A DNA stretch of 64,000 bases. Origin: Acidobacteriota bacterium. GTDB taxonomy: Bacteria; Acidobacteriota; Blastocatellia; Pyrinomonadales; Pyrinomonadaceae. The notes under the pieces were generated by a model. The model was not told the origin of the DNA, made no database searches, and worked only from the letters and a program-made list of their open reading frames with translations. Both the position numbers and the translations under genes were made by a program. Numbering within the stretch: position 1 is the first letter of the stretch; every line of letters begins with the position of its first letter. Below are positions 3,355 through 60,452 of this stretch, piece by piece. The stretch is taken from positions 124,001 to 188,000 of the forward strand of contig JAHBSL010000002.1 of the NCBI GenBank assembly GCA_019639135.1, written 5' to 3'.

Positions 3355-5031
3355 ATGAACAGTAAGAGTTTGAAAGTACGGACTCTGATAATCCTTGCCG
3401 TCACCCTGGCTGGGATCTACTTCGTCTTTGGCCCGCGGCGGACGCCGACCGGAGCCGACTTCACCTGGGCCGGGATCAAGGCAAACCTTGAACAGAACAT
3501 CAACCTTGGGCTCGACCTCAAGGGCGGTTCGCACCTCGTGATGCGGGTGAAGACGGACGAATACCTCAAGACCCTGACCGAAAATAACGCTCAGGCCGCG
3601 CTGACCGCCGCACAGGATGCAAAGCTCCCGGTGACGGGCAGCAACGTTGTTGCCGAGGGTGGGACTTACCAAATTACACTAAACCTCGGGCCCGACGCCC
3701 AAGGGGCCGCGGTTGCCGAAGAGGTCAAGAAAAAGGTCGATCTTTTCAATTGGTCCGAGGACGTTTCGGCAAATGCCGTCTCGTGGTCGCTTCCCTCGAC
3801 CGTTCAGACAAACCTCAAGAATCAGGCGGTCGAGCAGGCGCTCAAGATCATCGAGAGCCGCATCAACGCTTTCGGAGTAAAGGAACCGACACTTCAACGG
3901 CACGGTGCCGAAGCCTCTGCTCAGATATTGCTTCAGATGCCGGGCGTCGAAGACCCGGAACGCGTCAAGAACCTGATCGGTGCGGAATCGAACCTGATGC
4001 TGATGAAGATCGTCAGCCCGCCGAATCCGTCGCCTGTTCAAACATATCCGACCCGCGAAGCGGCACTTCAATCCCTAGGCGGAGCCCTGCCGCCGAACCG
4101 CCGCGTTCTGCCTTACGCCGAGCGCGATGCACGTCCGAATGCCGATGGAACACAGCCGCCCCCGAGCTGGGTCGTCGTCGAATATCCGGCAGTCGTTGAC
4201 GGCAGCGAACTTCGCGATGCCCAGGCTGTTTCGCGGACGGGCAGCGAAGGCGACTACCAGATATCGTTCTCTTTCAAGCCCGCCGGTGCGCAGAAATTCG
4301 GCGAATGGACGGGCCGCAACATCGGCAATTACATGGCCGTCGTGCTTAACGACGAGGTGAAATCGGCCGCATATATCCGCTCACAAATATTCGATCAGGG
4401 CGAGATCTCCGGCCAGTTCACCAAGGCTACTGCCGAGGACCTTGCCCTGACGCTCCGTTCCGGTGCGCTTCCGGCAAAGATAGAATACCTTGAGGAGCGA
4501 ACCGTCGGGCCGAGCCTCGGCGCCGATTCGATCTCGGCCGGCGTCCGTGCTTCGCTTGGCGGCCTGGCGTTCATTATCCTGTTCATGCTCTTTTACTACC
4601 GGGCATCTGGCATCAACGCGGTCGTCGCTCTTACGCTCAATATGCTCCTGACCGGAGCCGCTGTCGTGATGTTCGGCGCGACCTTGACGCTGCCGGGGAT
4701 AGCTGGGTTCATCCTAGGTATCGGCATGGCGGTTGACGCGAACGTCCTCGTCTTCGAACGTATTCGAGAAGAGCTGAGGGCAGGTGTCGCTGTTTCAAAG
4801 GCGATCTGGAACGGCTTTGACAGGGCGTTCATCACCATCGTCGATTCGAACTTGACGACGATCATTTCGTCCTTGATCTTGTATCTTTATGGCTCCGGCC
4901 CGATCCGCGGCTTTGCCGTAACGCTTATTTTGGCGTTGTTAATTAACCTGTTCACAGCCGTTTTTGTTTCGCGGACCATTTACGGATGGCTCTTGAGCCG
5001 CAACCCGGAACCGAAATCTTTGAGTATCTGA
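3355..5031 (+). CDS. secD: Protein translocase subunit SecD
   Basis: A 558-aa SecD. The N-terminal helix (residues 8-26) is followed by LGLDLKGGSHLVM, the signature of the first periplasmic domain. A long periplasmic region carries AFGVKEPTLQRHG. Five C-terminal membrane helices (from about residue 395) include GFILGIGMAVDANVLVFERIRE-type sequence with the conserved VDANVLVFERIREE core. SecDF uses the proton gradient to pull exported proteins across the inner membrane. The periplasmic part contains a lineage-specific stretch around residues 225-275 rich in Pro and Asn. Confidence 0.97.
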   Translation: MNSKSLKVRTLIILAVTLAGIYFVFGPRRTPTGADFTWAGIKANLEQNINLGLDLKGGSHLVMRVKTDEYLKTLTENNAQAALTAAQDAKLPVTGSNVVAEGGTYQITLNLGPDAQGAAVAEEVKKKVDLFNWSEDVSANAVSWSLPSTVQTNLKNQAVEQALKIIESRINAFGVKEPTLQRHGAEASAQILLQMPGVEDPERVKNLIGAESNLMLMKIVSPPNPSPVQTYPTREAALQSLGGALPPNRRVLPYAERDARPNADGTQPPPSWVVVEYPAVVDGSELRDAQAVSRTGSEGDYQISFSFKPAGAQKFGEWTGRNIGNYMAVVLNDEVKSAAYIRSQIFDQGEISGQFTKATAEDLALTLRSGALPAKIEYLEERTVGPSLGADSISAGVRASLGGLAFIILFMLFYYRASGINAVVALTLNMLLTGAAVVMFGATLTLPGIAGFILGIGMAVDANVLVFERIREELRAGVAVSKAIWNGFDRAFITIVDSNLTTIISSLILYLYGSGPIRGFAVTLILALLINLFTAVFVSRTIYGWLLSRNPEPKSLSI

Positions 5032-36232: not shown

Positions 36233-37669
36233 ATGGCTAACGCAGAATTTGGAATGGTCGGGCTCGGGACGATGGGCCGCAACTTTTTGCTTAATGTGGC
36301 CGAGAATGGCTTCGCGGCCGTCGGCTACGACCTGAGCGTCGAGAAACGCGAGCTTCTAGAGCTTGAAGGTGCCGGCACCCCGGTGACGGCAGCTATCGAG
36401 ATAGCCTCGCTCGCAGCATCGCTCGAGAGGCCGCGACGGATAATGATGCTGGTGCCCGCCGGGCCGGTGGTCGATGCCGTGATCGGCGACCTGCTGCCTC
36501 ATCTTGAACCGGGCGACATCCTGATCGACGGAGGCAACTCGCACTTTCCCGATACAGCCCGCCGCGAAGCGTTTCTAAAGGAACATGGCATCGCCTTTCT
36601 CGGCGTCGGAGTTTCGGGCGGCGAGGAAGGTGCCCGCCGCGGCCCGAGCATAATGATCGGTGGCGACCCGGCGGTTTACGAACGCGTAAGCCCGATCTTA
36701 GAGGCGGTCTCGGCAAAGGTGAATGGTGATCCCTGCGCCGCCCACGTCGGCCGCGGCTCGGCCGGGCATTTCGTCAAGATGGTCCACAACGGCATCGAAT
36801 ACGCGATGATGCAGCTAATCGCCGAGGCCTATGACGTGCTAAAGCGTGTCAGTAGCCCGCACGTAAGTAAGGGCTCATCGCAACAAACAAACGCCGAGAT
36901 CGCCCACACCTTCGCCGAGTGGAACCGCGGCCGCCTAAATTCCTTCCTGATCGAAATAACCGCTACCGTCCTCAAGAAGACCGACCCCGAAACCGGCAAC
37001 TCGCTCGTCGATATGATACTCGACACCGCCGGCCAGAAGGGCACCGGCAAATGGACCTCGCAAGCCGCAATGGACCTCGGCATCCCGATCCCGGCTATCG
37101 ACTCGGCCGTAACAATGCGGCAGATCTCAGCAAAAAAAGCATTCCGCGAAAAACAAAGCAGCCATTTTCTCCCAATTGGCAATTGGCCGATTGACAATTG
37201 TCAATTGGAAGAGAAGGCCATTGAGTCGGCACTCCATAGTTCCTTCGCAGCGGCCTATGCACAGGGCTTCTCGCTGCTCCGGGCGGCGTCGGACGAGATG
37301 GGCTTTGAGCTTGATATGGTCGAGATCGCGAAGATCTGGCGGGGCGGTTGCATTATTCGGGCCGCGATGCTTGAGGATATTCGGGCTGCATTTTCAGAGG
37401 AACCCGGCCTGGAAAACCTGATCGCGTCGCCGCAATTTCGGGATGCCTTGGCCGCGGGCCGCGAGGATCTTGCCAGAGTAGTTGTTGCTGCCGCCTCTGC
37501 CGGCATTCCGGCGATGGCCTTTGCCACGACGCTGAACTATCTTACGGCCTTCGCCACCGAACGCCTCCCGGCCAATCTTATCCAGGCCCAGAGAGACTAC
37601 TTCGGTGCCCACACGTACCAACGCACCGACCGCGAAGGCACGTTTCACACCGACGACTGGGAAGCTTGA
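36233..37669 (+). CDS. gnd: 6-phosphogluconate dehydrogenase, decarboxylating
   Basis: A 478-aa enzyme of the oxidative pentose phosphate pathway (6-phosphogluconate to ribulose 5-phosphate). It has the GLGTMGRNFLLN dinucleotide motif, VSGGEEGARRGPSIM, the catalytic HFVKMVHNGIEYAMMQ core, KGTGKWTSQAA and KIWRGGCIIRAA. Two in-frame insertions relative to the family coincide with palindromic repeats: SSPHVSKGSSQQ (from 36852) and PIGNWPIDNCQLEE (from 37169). Neither breaks the frame or touches catalytic residues, so the enzyme is probably active. It ends one base before the convergent lpxC. Confidence 0.95.
   Translation: MANAEFGMVGLGTMGRNFLLNVAENGFAAVGYDLSVEKRELLELEGAGTPVTAAIEIASLAASLERPRRIMMLVPAGPVVDAVIGDLLPHLEPGDILIDGGNSHFPDTARREAFLKEHGIAFLGVGVSGGEEGARRGPSIMIGGDPAVYERVSPILEAVSAKVNGDPCAAHVGRGSAGHFVKMVHNGIEYAMMQLIAEAYDVLKRVSSPHVSKGSSQQTNAEIAHTFAEWNRGRLNSFLIEITATVLKKTDPETGNSLVDMILDTAGQKGTGKWTSQAAMDLGIPIPAIDSAVTMRQISAKKAFREKQSSHFLPIGNWPIDNCQLEEKAIESALHSSFAAAYAQGFSLLRAASDEMGFELDMVEIAKIWRGGCIIRAAMLEDIRAAFSEEPGLENLIASPQFRDALAAGREDLARVVVAAASAGIPAMAFATTLNYLTAFATERLPANLIQAQRDYFGAHTYQRTDREGTFHTDDWEA
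36852..36879 (+). repeat. REP-like palindrome inside gnd
   Basis: AGCCC (36854-36858) and GGGCT (36871-36875) flank a 12-nt loop. The 28-bp unit matches a copy at 60264-60291 at 24 of 28 positions. It encodes SSPHVSKGSS where typical Gnd proteins pass directly from the YDVLKR helix to TNAEIAHTF-like sequence. This is an in-frame insertion of a dispersed repeat into a coding gene. Confidence 0.7.
37169..37213 (+). repeat. AATTG-family palindromic repeat inside gnd
   Basis: The first 34 bp match the left end of the cassette at 53597-53630 at 29 of 34 positions, with the same 21-bp spacing of its two boxes. The ends CTCCCAATTG and CAATTGGAAG form an imperfect palindrome. The 45-bp unit is 15 codons with no stop and encodes PIGNWPIDNCQLEE in a variable surface region of Gnd. 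Confidence 0.75.
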
Positions 37670-39060: not shown

Positions 39061-39651
39061 ATGGCGATTCAAACTGCGGGCCAAAAGACCGCAAAGACAG
39101 TAAAGCTTAAGATCGAGAACGCATCTTCGCTTGATATGCCAAAGGGCGGCGAGGAGACCATCCGGCAGGTGCTTGACTACGTCCCGATCGAGCAGCTCCG
39201 CGGGCTTGAGCGCGTAAAGCTTGTCGATTTCATCAACGATCCGCGGCTCAAGAACGTTGATGTCCCGATGAAAGGCGATCTGCCGGGCCTTTATCACCCG
39301 AAGGTCGGCAACCAGAACGCATGGTTCGAGATCGCAATGGGCGCTCTACTCCAGCCGACCGAGGGTTTTTCCAAGCGTTGGATGGCCAAGACGTCGTTCA
39401 AGGCAAATCTCGCCGGCCTGCTCTTTTCGCTCATTGGCCAACACTATTATCTGACGCTCCGCCACTCGGTCAAGAAACAGAACCTCGAACCGCAGATCCG
39501 GCAATACACCGAGAAGAACCTTCGAGCATGGAGCGAGGAACAGAACAAGAACAGCTTCCGGGCCAAGCTCTTCAAACCCATCCGCCCGTTCGTCGAGCGT
39601 ATGGCGAAATGGCTGAACAAAAAAGCGGCGAAAGCGCAGAAGAAAGTCTAG
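39061..39651 (+). CDS. Conserved protein of unknown function, possible relict peptidase fold
   Basis: A 196-aa soluble, basic protein. The segment FSLIGQHYYLTLRHSVKK followed by an acidic-to-aromatic helix is laid out like the HExxH helix and following elements of a zincin, but the HExxH glutamate is missing. This resemblance is weak. The stop codon TAG comes from the first unit of the 9-bp repeat array that follows, so the natural C terminus may have been altered. It directly follows the DUF2442 gene. Confidence 0.5.
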   Translation: MAIQTAGQKTAKTVKLKIENASSLDMPKGGEETIRQVLDYVPIEQLRGLERVKLVDFINDPRLKNVDVPMKGDLPGLYHPKVGNQNAWFEIAMGALLQPTEGFSKRWMAKTSFKANLAGLLFSLIGQHYYLTLRHSVKKQNLEPQIRQYTEKNLRAWSEEQNKNSFRAKLFKPIRPFVERMAKWLNKKAAKAQKKV

Positions 39652-39699
39652 GAAGTCTAGGAAGTCTGGGAAGTCTGGGAAGTCTGGAAAGTTCGAAAG
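39645..39699 (+). repeat. Left boundary array: 9-bp tandem repeats (AGTCTNGGA)
   Basis: Five consecutive 9-bp units (AGTCTAGGA twice, AGTCTGGGA twice, AGTCTGGAA) and a degenerate sixth. The first unit supplies the TAG stop of the upstream gene. The same 9-mer recurs in reverse orientation at 40135-40165, so the two arrays bracket the four-helix-bundle gene. Confidence 0.8.
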
Positions 39700-39717
39700 T
39701 TTGATTCGGCGAATGAT

Positions 39718-40101
39718 ATGGGGACATTCAAGAAGTTCGAGGATATTGTCGCTTGGCAGAAGGCCCGCGAATTGAATCTTGAAATTTACCGTATTTGCGG
39801 TTTCGGGCTGTTTTCGAAAGATTTTGATCTTCGAAATCAGATCCGTCGATCATCAATTTCGATTGCTGCGAACATAGCCGAGGGGCAGGGACGGCGTACC
39901 GATAAAGATTTCGCACATTTTCTTAATATCGCCCTTGGTTCTGTTGCCGAAACGAAATCACACATATACTTGGCTTTAGACCTTGGTTACATCGACAAGA
40001 CGACCTTTGACGAACTATACATTCGGCTTGATGAGATCGGACGGATGACGTTTGGTCTCATCCAGCATTTGCGAAACACGAACAAAACGATAGAAGTTTA
40101 G
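39718..40101 (+). CDS. Four-helix-bundle protein of the S23/IVP family (first copy)
   Basis: A 127-aa protein of the family first found in intervening sequences of 23S rRNA genes: FKKFEDIVAWQKARELNLEIY, seen in part, then FDLRNQIRRSSISIAANIAEG, again partly, then FLNIALGSVAETKSHIYLA. These proteins form pentameric four-helix bundles; the Avd protein of diversity-generating retroelements is a relative. No reverse transcriptase or variable repeat is nearby. The gene lies in a 521-bp cassette bounded by inverted 9-bp arrays (39645-40165). Function unknown. Confidence 0.88.
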   Translation: MGTFKKFEDIVAWQKARELNLEIYRICGFGLFSKDFDLRNQIRRSSISIAANIAEGQGRRTDKDFAHFLNIALGSVAETKSHIYLALDLGYIDKTTFDELYIRLDEIGRMTFGLIQHLRNTNKTIEV

Positions 40102-40134
40102 GAAGCCCGAAACGGTTCAAATTTGACCATCACA

Positions 40135-40165
40135 GACTTCCAAGACCTCCTAGACTTCCAAGACT
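40135..40165 (-). repeat. Right boundary array: inverted 9-bp repeats
   Basis: On the minus strand three and a half units read AGTCTTGGA, AGTCTAGGA, GGTCTTGGA, AGTCT. This is the inverted counterpart of the array at 39645-39699. It ends 17 bp before the EVE-domain gene. Confidence 0.75.
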
Positions 40166-40182
40166 GACTGGACACTGAACTT

Positions 40183-40587
40183 ATGAACTACTGGATGGTT
40201 AAACAAGAACCCGATTCTTATTCCTGGGATGATTTTGTAAACGACGGCAAGACCGACTGGACCGGCGTGCGGAACTACCAGGCACGCAACAATCTTCGCG
40301 ATATGAAGGTCGGCGACAAGGTGCTTTTCTACCACTCGAACATCGGCAAGGAAGTGGTCGGCATTGCCAAGGTCACGAAGGCCGCTTTCCCAGATCCGAC
40401 CGCTGATGACGACAAATGGGTCGCCGTCGAACTCTCGCCGGTCAAGCCGCTCAAAAAGCCGGTCGGGCTCGGGCAGATGAAAGAGAACCTCGCTCTTCGC
40501 GACCTCAAGCTCATTCGCCAATCGCAGCTTTCCGTAATGCCCGTAACAAAAGACGAGTTCGACGAGATCCTCAGCATGGCAAGGTAA
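40183..40587 (+). CDS. EVE-domain protein
   Basis: A 134-aa protein with the EVE/PUA-like fold of the thymocyte-nuclear-protein-1 type: YWMVKQEPDSYSWDDF, WTGVRNYQARNNLRDMKVGD, YHSNIGKEVVGIAKV. The pocket residues typical of EVE proteins (WTGVRNYQARN) are intact. EVE domains bind modified bases in DNA or RNA. The gene overlaps none of its neighbours, and its 3' end is 5 nt before the ATP-grasp-like gene. Confidence 0.92.
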   Translation: MNYWMVKQEPDSYSWDDFVNDGKTDWTGVRNYQARNNLRDMKVGDKVLFYHSNIGKEVVGIAKVTKAAFPDPTADDDKWVAVELSPVKPLKKPVGLGQMKENLALRDLKLIRQSQLSVMPVTKDEFDEILSMAR

Positions 40588-53275: not shown

Positions 53276-53614
53276 ATGAAAGTACAACTCGTTAAGATCG
53301 CACACGCCCGCTCGGGCGACAAAGGCGATACGGCAAACGTCGGGCTCATCGCCCTCGAAGATAAATACTATCCGATTCTCGTCCGCGAGGTAACGGCCGA
53401 ACGCGTCAAAGCGCACTTCGGCGATATGGTAAAAGGCGAGGTCGAACGCTTCGAACTGCCAAACCTCGGCGCCCTAAATTTCCTGCTCCACGGAGCCCTC
53501 GGCGGCGGCGGAACACTCAGCCTGATGACCGACGCCCAAGGCAAAACATTCTCGACCGCATTGCTGCGAATGTATATCGATGCGGAAGATATCGATCTCC
53601 CAATTAACAATTGA
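53276..53614 (+). CDS. AtuA-like C-terminal domain protein
   Basis: A 112-aa protein with the AtuA C-domain pattern: KIAHARSGDKGDTANVGLIA and ALNFLLHGALGGGG. In the Pseudomonas acyclic terpene (citronellol/geraniol) pathway AtuA contains this domain fused to a DUF1446 domain; here the DUF1446 part is a separate gene at 60503. The last residues (PINN) and the TGA stop are provided by the repeat that bounds the next cassette, so the original C terminus may have been changed. Confidence 0.85.
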   Translation: MKVQLVKIAHARSGDKGDTANVGLIALEDKYYPILVREVTAERVKAHFGDMVKGEVERFELPNLGALNFLLHGALGGGGTLSLMTDAQGKTFSTALLRMYIDAEDIDLPINN

Positions 53615-53630
53615 CCGATTTACAATTGCC
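53597..53630 (+). repeat. Left boundary repeat of the second four-helix-bundle cassette
   Basis: Two boxes: CTCCCAATTAACAAT (53597-53611) and ATTTACAATTGCC (53618-53630). Both recur in reverse orientation at 53977-54018. The TGA stop of the AtuA domain gene lies in this repeat (53612-53614), and the ATG of the next gene follows it by one base. The same 34-bp unit occurs inside gnd (37169-37202). Confidence 0.8.
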
Positions 53631-53631
53631 A

Positions 53632-53988
53632 ATGATGAGCGAAAATCCCATTGTCTCCAAATCTTTTGCGTTTGCCCTGCGAATTGTAAAGCTTTGCCGC
53701 ATGCTCGCCGATGAGCACAAGGAATATACGCTCAGCCGCGAGTTGCTTTCGTCCGGCACGAACATCGGCCGTTATGTTAAAGCAGCCGTAAGCGGAGAGT
53801 CCCGCGAAAGTTTTGTTCAGAACATGGGAAAGGCTTTGCAGCAAGCGGACATTACCGAATACTGGCTGCAACTTATCAGCTTTGCCCAATTGCTCAATGA
53901 AAATGAATATGAATCCATTGAACGTGACCGAAAGGAACTCGCGAGGATGCTGACCAACATCGTTAAGACATCTCGGGGCAAATTGTAA
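53632..53988 (+). CDS. Four-helix-bundle protein of the S23/IVP family (second copy)
   Basis: A 118-aa protein from the ATG at 53632 (53635 also possible); the TTG at 53611 lies in the repeat. Family features: VSKSFAFALRIVKLC, LSSGTNIGRYVKAAVSGES and KALQQADITEYWLQL. It belongs to the subgroup with ESRESFVQNMGKALQQA, common as single genes in many bacteria. Its stop codon (53986-53988) lies inside the right repeat. It occupies a 422-bp cassette (53597-54018). Sequence identity to the copy at 39718 is low, so the cassettes are old or separately acquired. Confidence 0.87.
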   Translation: MMSENPIVSKSFAFALRIVKLCRMLADEHKEYTLSRELLSSGTNIGRYVKAAVSGESRESFVQNMGKALQQADITEYWLQLISFAQLLNENEYESIERDRKELARMLTNIVKTSRGKL

Positions 53989-54018
53989 ATTGTCCATTGA
54001 AGGATTGTTAATTGGAAG
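53977..54018 (-). repeat. Right boundary repeat of the second four-helix-bundle cassette
   Basis: Contains GGCAAATTGTAAAT and ATTGTTAATTGGAAG, the inverse of the two left boxes, 13 bp apart. It is copied at 54127-54168 as part of the tandem duplication. The GGAAG at its end also forms the ribosome-site region of the hydratase gene. Confidence 0.75.
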
Positions 54019-54023
54019 AAGAT

Positions 54024-54071
54024 ATGCCCGTTCTGGTTACAGAAGATCACGAATCCATACGCGTCCTGTGA
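54024..54071 (+). pseudogene. Truncated start of an enoyl-CoA hydratase gene
   Basis: Fifteen codons (MPVLVTEDHESIRVL) ending in TGA, clearly homologous to the first 15 codons of the intact hydratase at 54174 (MSVLLTEDHKYIRVL). It is followed at once by the 3' remnant of a four-helix-bundle gene. Confidence 0.8.
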
Positions 54072-54138
54072 ACGCGACCGCAAAGAGATCGCGAGGATGC
54101 TGACCAACATCGTCAAGACATCTCGGGGCAAATTGTAA
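54071..54138 (+). pseudogene. 3' remnant of a four-helix-bundle gene
   Basis: The last 22 codons of an S23/IVP-type gene (RDRKEIARMLTNIVKTSRG..., shown in part), in-frame to the TAA at 54136-54138, with third-position differences from the intact copy. It has no start of its own. Confidence 0.75.
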
Positions 54139-54173
54139 ATTGTCCATTGAAGGATTGTTAATTGGAAGAAGAT

Positions 54174-54929
54174 ATGTCCGTCCTACTTACAGAAGATCAC
54201 AAATACATACGCGTCTTGACCCTAAACCGCCCCGAGAAGCGGAATGCGCTCAATGATGAGTTGGTCGCGGAGCTTAAGCGGGCGGTGCGGGCGGCGGATG
54301 GGGAAGATTCGTTGAGTGCGGTCGTTATCCGCGGGGCGGGGAAGGATTTCTGTTCCGGGGCGGACCTTTCGGCGTTGCAGAAGATCGCCGGGGCTTCGTA
54401 TGAGGAAAATCTGGAGGATGCGAAAAGCCTGGCTGAGCTTTTCTCATTGATCCGGAATGCGCGGGTGCCGGTCATCGCGGCGGTCCACGGGCGGGCGCTT
54501 GCGGGCGGATGCGGGCTGGCGACGGGCTGCGACATCGTGCTTGCGACCGAGACCGCCCGCTTCGGTTATCCGGAGGTGAAGATCGGCTTTGTCCCGGCGA
54601 TCGTAATGGCGATACTCCGCCGCAACCTCGGCGAAAAGCTCGCCTTTGAGCTGGTCACGCAGGGCTTCGAGTTCTCCGCACCGGAGGCGAAGGCCCTCGG
54701 CCTCGTCAACCGGCTCTTCCCCGAGGAGGGCTTTGAAGCCGCCGTGCTCGACTACGCCGCCGTCTATTCAAAGATCAGCCGCACCGCCGTCGCCCTCAGC
54801 AAATCGCTGCTCTATCGAATGGACGCAATGGACTTCGCCGCCGCCCTCGCCGCCGGCTCCGAAACCAACGCCCAAGCCAGAATGACCGAAGACTGCCAAA
54901 AAGGCATCGCCCGTTTCTTGAAGAAATAG
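54174..54929 (+). CDS. Enoyl-CoA hydratase/isomerase family protein
   Basis: A 251-aa crotonase-family enzyme of usual length. The ATG at 54174 is chosen over a TTG at 54162. Oxyanion-hole segments are FCSGADLSAL and HGRALAGGCGLATGCD, with the acidic PEVKIGFVPAIV segment that carries catalytic Glu in many hydratases. It probably hydrates an unsaturated acyl-CoA, for example methylglutaconyl-CoA-type substrates, given the carboxylase and AtuA genes nearby; the exact substrate is inferred. Spacing 54930-55127 after it is AT-rich and empty. Confidence 0.9.
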   Translation: MSVLLTEDHKYIRVLTLNRPEKRNALNDELVAELKRAVRAADGEDSLSAVVIRGAGKDFCSGADLSALQKIAGASYEENLEDAKSLAELFSLIRNARVPVIAAVHGRALAGGCGLATGCDIVLATETARFGYPEVKIGFVPAIVMAILRRNLGEKLAFELVTQGFEFSAPEAKALGLVNRLFPEEGFEAAVLDYAAVYSKISRTAVALSKSLLYRMDAMDFAAALAAGSETNAQARMTEDCQKGIARFLKK

Positions 54930-59656: not shown

Positions 59657-60137
59657 TGTGGATAAGTGCTCAGTCCTCAAAAACAGAGCGAACAGCAAAG
59701 CAGGTAAGGAGGAAAATTTATTCAGCCGGGATTTCGACCGATCGTTAAACCATACACAGATTTCAAACTACTTGCGGATATCCTTAAACGCCAAAATGGC
59801 TGCACAGCGTGGATATTTCCACGTGAGTTTAACAGGAGTTAGAAGCTCTTTACAACAAGTTATATTTTGATTTTCCACAGTTCCAATACTTTGACGTAGG
59901 GATTGCACCTATGATACAGTCATGCGTGTCTAGGACAGCCGGGCCGCGGGTTTGCGGCGGGCGGTTGAGGAAAAAATGGTGATGATGGGAATGGATCGGA
60001 AACTGGTGATGGCGGCGGAGCGTAGGGAACGATCGGCTCCTGCGTTTAGCCGTTCGTTTTCTTTTTGGGCGGGGCTGTTCCAATCGGCCGACGGAAAACG
60101 TGTAAACCTATTTCAGGACAAAGCTCCACGGCCTTGT

Positions 60138-60209
60138 GTTTCCGGCGTTCGCGATGTTCGCGGTGTTTTCGATGTTCGCGATGCTTTCGGTGTTCACGGC
60201 GTTTCCGCG
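60138..60209 (+). repeat. Eight 9-bp tandem repeats (GTTYNCGRY)
   Basis: Units: GTTTCCGGC, GTTCGCGAT, GTTCGCGGT, GTTTTCGAT, GTTCGCGAT, GCTTTCGGT, GTTCACGGC, GTTTCCGCG. The 72-bp length equals that of the array at 60381, with which it shares a GTTTC(A/C)GGC core in the same orientation. Confidence 0.8.
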
Positions 60210-60265
60210 AACGCGCAGTGCCCGTTAAAAAACATAACAACACTGAACGCGGAACCCGGATACGG

Positions 60266-60289
60266 AAGCCCGCGCGTCAGCAAGGGCTT
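60266..60289. repeat. REP-like palindrome (second copy)
   Basis: AAGCCC (60266-60271) and GGGCTT (60284-60289) around a 12-nt loop. It matches the unit in gnd (36852-36879) at 24 of 28 aligned positions. Confidence 0.7.
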
Positions 60290-60308
60290 ATCATCCATTG
60301 CGATATTC

Positions 60309-60343
60309 GGAATCTGGAATCTGGAATTTGGAATCTGGAATGA
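60309..60343 (+). repeat. Five 7-bp tandem repeats (GGAATCT)
   Basis: Units GGAATCT, GGAATCT, GGAATTT, GGAATCT, GGAATGA. Period 7 unlike the flanking 9-bp arrays. Confidence 0.75.
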
Positions 60344-60380
60344 AATCCCGTCGGCTATGGCCGGGACTCAAAACTCCGGA

Positions 60381-60452
60381 GCGTTTCAGGCGTTTCAACT
60401 GTTTCAGGCGTTTCAGCCGTTACAAGCGTTTCATCTGTTTCAACCGTTTCAG
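60381..60452 (+). repeat. Eight 9-bp tandem repeats (GCGTTTCAG)
   Basis: Units GCGTTTCAG, GCGTTTCAA, CTGTTTCAG, GCGTTTCAG, CCGTTACAA, GCGTTTCAT, CTGTTTCAA, CCGTTTCAG. It ends 50 bp before the stop of the AtuA-family gene. Confidence 0.8.

Follow-up and report, generated by a model that had tools for sequence, protein, structure and literature searches.

The 23S rRNA intervening sequences (IVSs) of Coxiella and Leptospira carry an S23 open reading frame between terminal inverted repeats, and in Coxiella the frame is preceded by tandem heptamers, GACAGAT; the IVS has been called a selfish element (PMC4990558). A second described arrangement is that of the RAYTs, Y1 tyrosine transposase genes bracketed by REPs (PMC2817692). 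Short heptamer arrays are the substance of the STRRs of cyanobacteria, and arrays of the heptamer TAACTGA in intergenic gaps are on record for Beggiatoaceae, cyanobacteria and Bacteroidetes, with no mechanism proposed (PMC4679880). At the protein level, Avd has been described as a homologue of PF05635, the S23 family, and is essential for retrohoming in diversity-generating retroelements (PMC10053308). S23 genes, under the name 23S_rRNA_IVP, have also been noted within cas operons and loci and discussed as CRISPR-associated (PMC3936711).

The S23 gene described here lies in a window of 64 kb (the whole stretch of DNA analysed, to which all coordinates refer), and the locus is likely to be one copy of a mobile element with inverted short-tandem ends, of which array-only derivatives also occur. 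Its parts and immediate neighbours are as follows.

39061..39651, plus strand: upstream host gene, without a Pfam match, its stop codon within the left array
39644..39692, plus strand: left array, about 5.4 copies of AGTCTNGGA with a period of 9 bp, the first unit carrying the TAG of the upstream gene
39718..40101, plus strand: S23 (23S rRNA-intervening-sequence protein) gene, PF05635, encoding a four-helix bundle of 127 amino acids
40130..40165, minus strand: right array, the same AGTCTNGGA unit on the opposite strand in about 3.6 copies, with 89% complementarity to the left array
40183..40587, plus strand: downstream host gene with an EVE domain (PF01878), on the same strand as the S23 gene

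The left array contains four exact AGTCTNGGA units, starting at 39645, 39654, 39663 and 39672, and a fifth, AGTCTGGAA, with one mismatch. The right array has exact minus-strand units at 40157-40165 and 40148-40156, a unit with one mismatch at 40139-40147 and one partial unit. Tandem Repeats Finder reports a period of 9 for both, with 5.4 and 3.6 copies, respectively. Outside the two arrays AGTCTNGGA does not occur in the 64 kb, for a chance expectation of 1.6 occurrences. The stop codon of the upstream open reading frame (TAG, 39649-39651) falls within the first unit of the left array. An earlier note, made from the sequence alone, had counted five plus-strand units on the left and three and a half minus-strand units on the right and had attributed the TAG of the upstream gene to the left array; these claims held.

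The element resembles an IVS in having an S23/PF05635 reading frame enclosed by terminal inverted repeats that form a stem. An IVS is also cut out of the transcript by RNase III, which for the present element would hold by analogy only. The 36 nt arms are 89% complementary, and in a single-strand fold of the locus they pair and enclose the reading frame in a loop (z -5.9 relative to shuffled sequences). The complementarity score between the upstream and downstream sides is 52, compared with an average of 19 to 20 at 4000 random positions, fewer than 1% of which reach 30. The difference is one of location: an IVS lies within an rRNA gene, whereas the present element lies between protein-coding genes. 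No rRNA was found in 20 S23 loci checked, including this one (L004), which excludes that the S23 genes at these sites are 23S rRNA inserts.

A profile search matches the encoded protein to PF05635 only (125 bits, cut-off 33.8) and gives no match to Y1 (HUH) tyrosine transposases; recognised catalytic residues are lacking in S23. The AlphaFold2 model (pLDDT 93.7) matches the solved S23 proteins 2gsc (Z 18.6, rmsd 1.4) and 2rld (Z 17.0). Avd chains are matched as well (Z 14.0 and 13.9), but unrelated helical bundles come within 1 Z of these values, so that the Avd fold match is not decisive. Both 2gsc and 2rld contain five chains of the sequence, and by analogy the protein of this locus could form a homopentameric ring. 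Given the described homology with Avd and the five chains per entry, a ring binding repeated nucleic acid is plausible.

The refuting condition set by the earlier note, that other S23 genes lack repeats and the bracketing is a coincidence, was put to a test in which 300 nt on each side of a gene were compared and the inverted arms had to exceed the 99th percentile of random positions. The genome containing the window has 17 PF05635 matches of many lineages, 14 of them above the cut-off, and 12 of these 14 genes are bracketed by inverted tandem arrays with a period of 7, 8 or 9 bp. With congeners and a few genomes of the same class included, 78 of 104 distinct S23 loci are bracketed. The same holds for 64 of 78 usable loci in named genomes of many phyla (Flavobacterium, Planctomycetes, Chloroflexi, Verrucomicrobia, cyanobacteria, Nitrospira, Proteobacteria, Bacillota and others), which were picked by protein similarity alone. 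Random positions pass in 0.7-0.9% of cases and ordinary small open reading frames in three of 142, one of the three being the present S23 gene and another lying at a Y1 transposase hit. A chance origin is rejected on the locus score relative to random positions and on these control pass rates; bracketing of S23 genes is the rule and not a pair of coincidences. S23 genes without detectable arrays, about one fifth to one quarter, are mostly confined to a few clades of the S23 tree.

Two other lines of search are not used as evidence. A first array-pair detector yielded at least some eight inverted pairs in 464 kb, a lower bound because its strict thresholds missed degenerate pairs; a direct-repeat control gave a similar figure, and this census carries no weight. 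A third bracketed gene family is not claimed, because most loops apparently holding another gene turned out to be S23 loci whose longest reading frame was not the S23 frame, or arrays separated by about 1 kb.

The window contains a second S23 gene (53620-53997), and the earlier note had proposed that the two cassettes share one plan, inverted repeats around a single four-helix-bundle gene inserted behind another gene, while differing in their boundary sequences. The plan held, with the refinement that the cassettes do not belong to one sequence family, the unit being specific to the S23 lineage. The arms of the second gene are degenerate and its score is only 29-30. They read CCAATTAACAATT.. 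and ..AATTGTTAATTGG within 53580-54215, and the right end of the gene lies within a 150-bp tandem duplication (53919-54215).

Across loci, the repeat units track the S23 protein tree. AGTCTNGGA surrounds the genes of one clade and AGTTGCAGA those of a neighbouring clade, and other clades have AAAAAGTG, GGTTCAA, GTAAATC, AAAGGCG, GGATTTT or GACGCGGG. Shared ancestry of the sites themselves was controlled by removing locus pairs with homologous flanking proteins, which left 3030 pairs. Among these, S23 proteins with a similarity of at least 0.7 share the unit in the same polarity in 83% of pairs and in the opposite polarity in 0%, and no more than 1% of the pairs with a similarity under 0.5 have a unit in common. 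None of 2000 permutations reached the observed correlation between unit and protein. Since the unit follows the S23 lineage, with fixed polarity and at unrelated sites, the arrays are part of the element and not a property of the insertion site.

The arms also have a sense relative to the gene. The left arm is C-poor on the gene strand, and GT is present in at least 60% of the units in 77% of arrays on the gene strand, against 11% on the other strand. Where the neighbours are on the same strand, the S23 gene is co-directional with them in 99 of 107 loci. This bias could reflect insertion along the direction of transcription, a need of the S23 gene for read-through or selection against antisense inserts. 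In three genomes (G000, G020 and G037), S23 genes that are closely related and have matching flanks give dN/dS values of 0.05-0.10, and the number and order of array units differ between these orthologues. The S23 protein is thus under strong purifying selection and is kept while the arrays turn over.

Comparison of equivalent junctions shows occupied, gene-less and empty sites. Of 30 genomes compared at the rpsG-fusA junction, four show a bare 8-nt gap, TAGTAATG or TAATAATG, and the genome of the window has 430 nt with an S23 gene within GTAAATC arrays; a related S23 gene, likewise inside arrays, occupies the same position in G041, which is not among the 30. In the remaining 25 genomes the gap is 49-104 nt long, and 19 of these gaps form inverted repeats beyond all 40 shuffles, 14 of the 19 being visibly periodic. 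The units of the hairpins vary widely between species. No clear target-site duplication could be read from the comparison of the empty TAGTAATG/TAATAATG junctions with the filled ones. The junction (L064-L093) is a hot spot within one genus, with many unrelated inverted-array hairpins and four clean empty sites, and is suited to the study of insertion.

At the junction of the present locus with the EVE-domain gene, G007 carries an S23 gene of the same lineage, G009 a hairpin of the same unit, AGTCTAGGA, whose loop of about 30 nt holds no gene, and G011 a hairpin of a different 7-bp unit. Gene-less AGTCTNGGA pairs were found at other sites in G000, G007 and G020. AGTCTNGGA arrays are present in seven of 13 genomes with the matching S23 lineage and in one of 28 without it (Fisher p 5e-4). 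This test concerns one unit type in 41 related, non-independent genomes, with the lineage defined by a threshold of about 59% identity, and for these reasons the p value is only indicative. No transposition was observed directly: no two sites were found to hold near-identical copies, and unit sharing was observed at about 70-80% protein similarity.

The proposal that these cassettes are inserted at a stop codon held only in part, being true locally. An array supplies the stop codon at the present locus and at the 3' end of rpsP, but between rpsG and fusA the stop codon of the host gene is kept and the element occupies the gap up to the next gene. At the rpsP site (L379 in G020 and L380 in G000; the gene is taken, by its appearance, to be that of ribosomal protein S16) the stop codon is provided by a lone AGTCTNGGA array with no inverted partner nearby.

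Several hairpins of congeners at the rpsG-fusA junction carry ACCGCAGAGACGCAGAG-type units, and for this reason GxxExxY genes (PF13366, PDDEXK_3) were subjected to the same test. Inverted arrays, mostly of the ACCGCAGAGACGCAGAG type, bracket 26 of 30 GxxExxY loci (L154-L183). Similarity of the units follows that of the proteins (rho 0.72), in a small set from which synteny was not removed. The GxxExxY genes thus show the same plan as the S23 genes with a unit type of their own. Array units of the types ACCACAGAG, ACCGCAGAG and CACAGAT were observed at these loci. The numbers of S23 and GxxExxY genes are correlated across 41 genomes (rho 0.66), but both may simply track genome quality or size.

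As a positive control, 17 of 20 Y1 transposase genes of the genus were found between inverted palindromic REPs, as described for RAYTs (PMC2817692). Y1 matches occur in all 41 congeners (1-21 per genome), and the REPs around them look unlike the S23 arrays. The Y1 loci (L318-L337) show classical REP-RAYT-REP units with GCCGTGG..CCACGG palindromes, which exist alongside the S23 elements.

Other short arrays occur in the window. An in-frame CAATTGG array within gnd (37173-37208) encodes the peptide PIGNWPIDNCQL. The linker in which the peptide lies differs widely among congeners, both in length and in sequence, and in two of them (L343 and L344) it has CAATTAACAATT-type arrays. The CAATTGG array is not claimed as an in-frame insertion, because the linkers of relatives have many lengths without arrays. 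At 60120-60452, three different short arrays (TTCGCGATG, GGAATCT and CGTTTCAGC) follow one another with no adjoining S23 gene.

The observations could be explained without a mobile element if S23 were a chromosomal regulator that binds RNA or DNA, with autoregulatory arrays around its own gene and with the gene-less arrays in operons forming a regulon spread by duplication or slippage. Strong purifying selection on S23, the co-directional placement of the genes, the match of unit to protein lineage and the presence of arrays beside rpsG-fusA, rpsP, tRNA-Sec and SRP RNA genes would all fit such a role, which is also compatible with a domesticated form of the element. However, the sites of the arrays differ between congeners, a single junction (rpsG-fusA) is empty in some species while the units that fill it in others are unrelated, one genome has 17 S23 hits of many lineages, and S23 pseudogenes exist. 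The regulator explanation is considered unlikely. Still less probable is that hairpin arrays arose in the host by replication slippage and that S23 genes landed in their loops, the arrays being a target and not part of the element. In its favour, gene-less hairpins occupy the same junction in relatives, one of them sharing the unit (L051), and IVS elements are located in rRNA helices (PMC4990558). A pre-existing target would, however, leave the unit independent of the protein lineage at unrelated sites, and it is the tight link at non-homologous sites, with its fixed polarity, that disfavours this explanation; the separate unit type of GxxExxY also argues against it.

A retroelement, in which a transcribed hairpin and the S23 product are copied by a reverse transcriptase as with Avd in diversity-generating retroelements, can be all but ruled out. 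It is supported by the described homology of S23 and Avd (PMC10053308), by the match of the S23 model to Avd chains and by an orientation that follows transcription. Against this, the Avd scores are hardly distinguishable from those of the unrelated bundles mentioned above, and RVT_1 was found in only eight of 41 congeners, its presence being unrelated to S23 number (mean of 8.2 S23 genes without and 8.0 with RVT_1; rho 0.01). S23 genes are just as numerous in the 33 congeners without RVT_1, so that the S23 element can do without a resident reverse transcriptase.

The S23 mobile element is the preferred reading. Comparison shows that the ends are inverted tandem arrays corresponding to the encoded protein, that the sites occupied vary from species to species and that derivatives without the gene exist; the mechanism is inferred. 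The ends of the element would be the two inverted arrays of a 7-9 bp tandem unit, with S23 as the sole gene between them. It is inferred that the S23 protein reads the repeat unit, either as DNA or as a transcribed hairpin. By analogy with the role of a RAYT for its REPs, it would make the ends recognisable, in cis for its own copy and in trans for gene-less copies. Cutting and joining would be carried out by an unidentified nuclease or recombinase. Insertion would take place along the direction of transcription, and the 23S rRNA IVS would be a special case, an element of this kind located in an rRNA helix.

Compared with the described systems, the S23 element differs from IVSs not only in location but also in that many lineages coexist in a genome, every one with a unit of its own, and in having gene-less derivatives. 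With REP/REPIN-RAYT systems it shares a single small gene between inverted repeats, the co-evolution of gene and repeats, the occurrence of repeat pairs without the gene and an association of the cognate repeats with presence of the gene (PMC2817692; Nunvar et al., 2010), but S23 is not a Y1 tyrosine transposase, and its ends are 7-9 bp tandem arrays in place of single palindromes of 20-40 bp. TAACTGA arrays and STRRs are similar in being 7-bp intergenic arrays of sporadic distribution that at times overlap an upstream stop codon; the TAACTGA arrays, however, are direct repeats of one unit, only one inverted set is given and S23 is not mentioned (PMC4679880). Avd is likewise a four-helix bundle but needs a reverse transcriptase and template and variable repeats, whereas the S23 element has no need of a resident reverse transcriptase. 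MITEs and insertion sequences also have inverted ends and gene-less derivatives, but the S23 element has no recognised transposase and its ends are variable tandem arrays. The element thus combines IVS-like content with a REP/RAYT-like plan and falls outside both groups by their defining features, the rRNA location of the one and the Y1 transposase and REP palindromes of the other. A search of the open-access literature, which took in papers on TAACTGA arrays, RAYTs, the Coxiella IVS, diversity-generating retroelements and cas-gene catalogues and did not cover subscription journals or preprints, found no report of non-rRNA S23 genes with inverted arrays, of a unit that follows the protein or of a similar arrangement for GxxExxY.

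S23 genes, also called 'four helix bundle' genes, are frequent in environmental bacteria, and no function has so far been assigned to them. The present finding links them with the intergenic heptamer arrays, for which no mechanism had been given, proposes an origin of rRNA intervening sequences and suggests why 23S_rRNA_IVP genes turned up within cas operons. An inverted pair of 7-9 bp arrays is a simple signature with which insertions in operons, ribosomal operons included, can be found and dated. A bolder reading, which may as well prove wrong as right, is that these loci represent a widespread and undescribed class of mobile elements, consisting of inverted short-unit arrays around one small protein gene. 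The S23 protein and the unrelated GxxExxY protein, which has a nuclease fold, would act in it as repeat readers that replace a classical transposase, each lineage having its own unit, with the 23S rRNA IVS as one special case. If this were true, gene-less copies would explain many of the unexplained heptamer arrays of bacteria.
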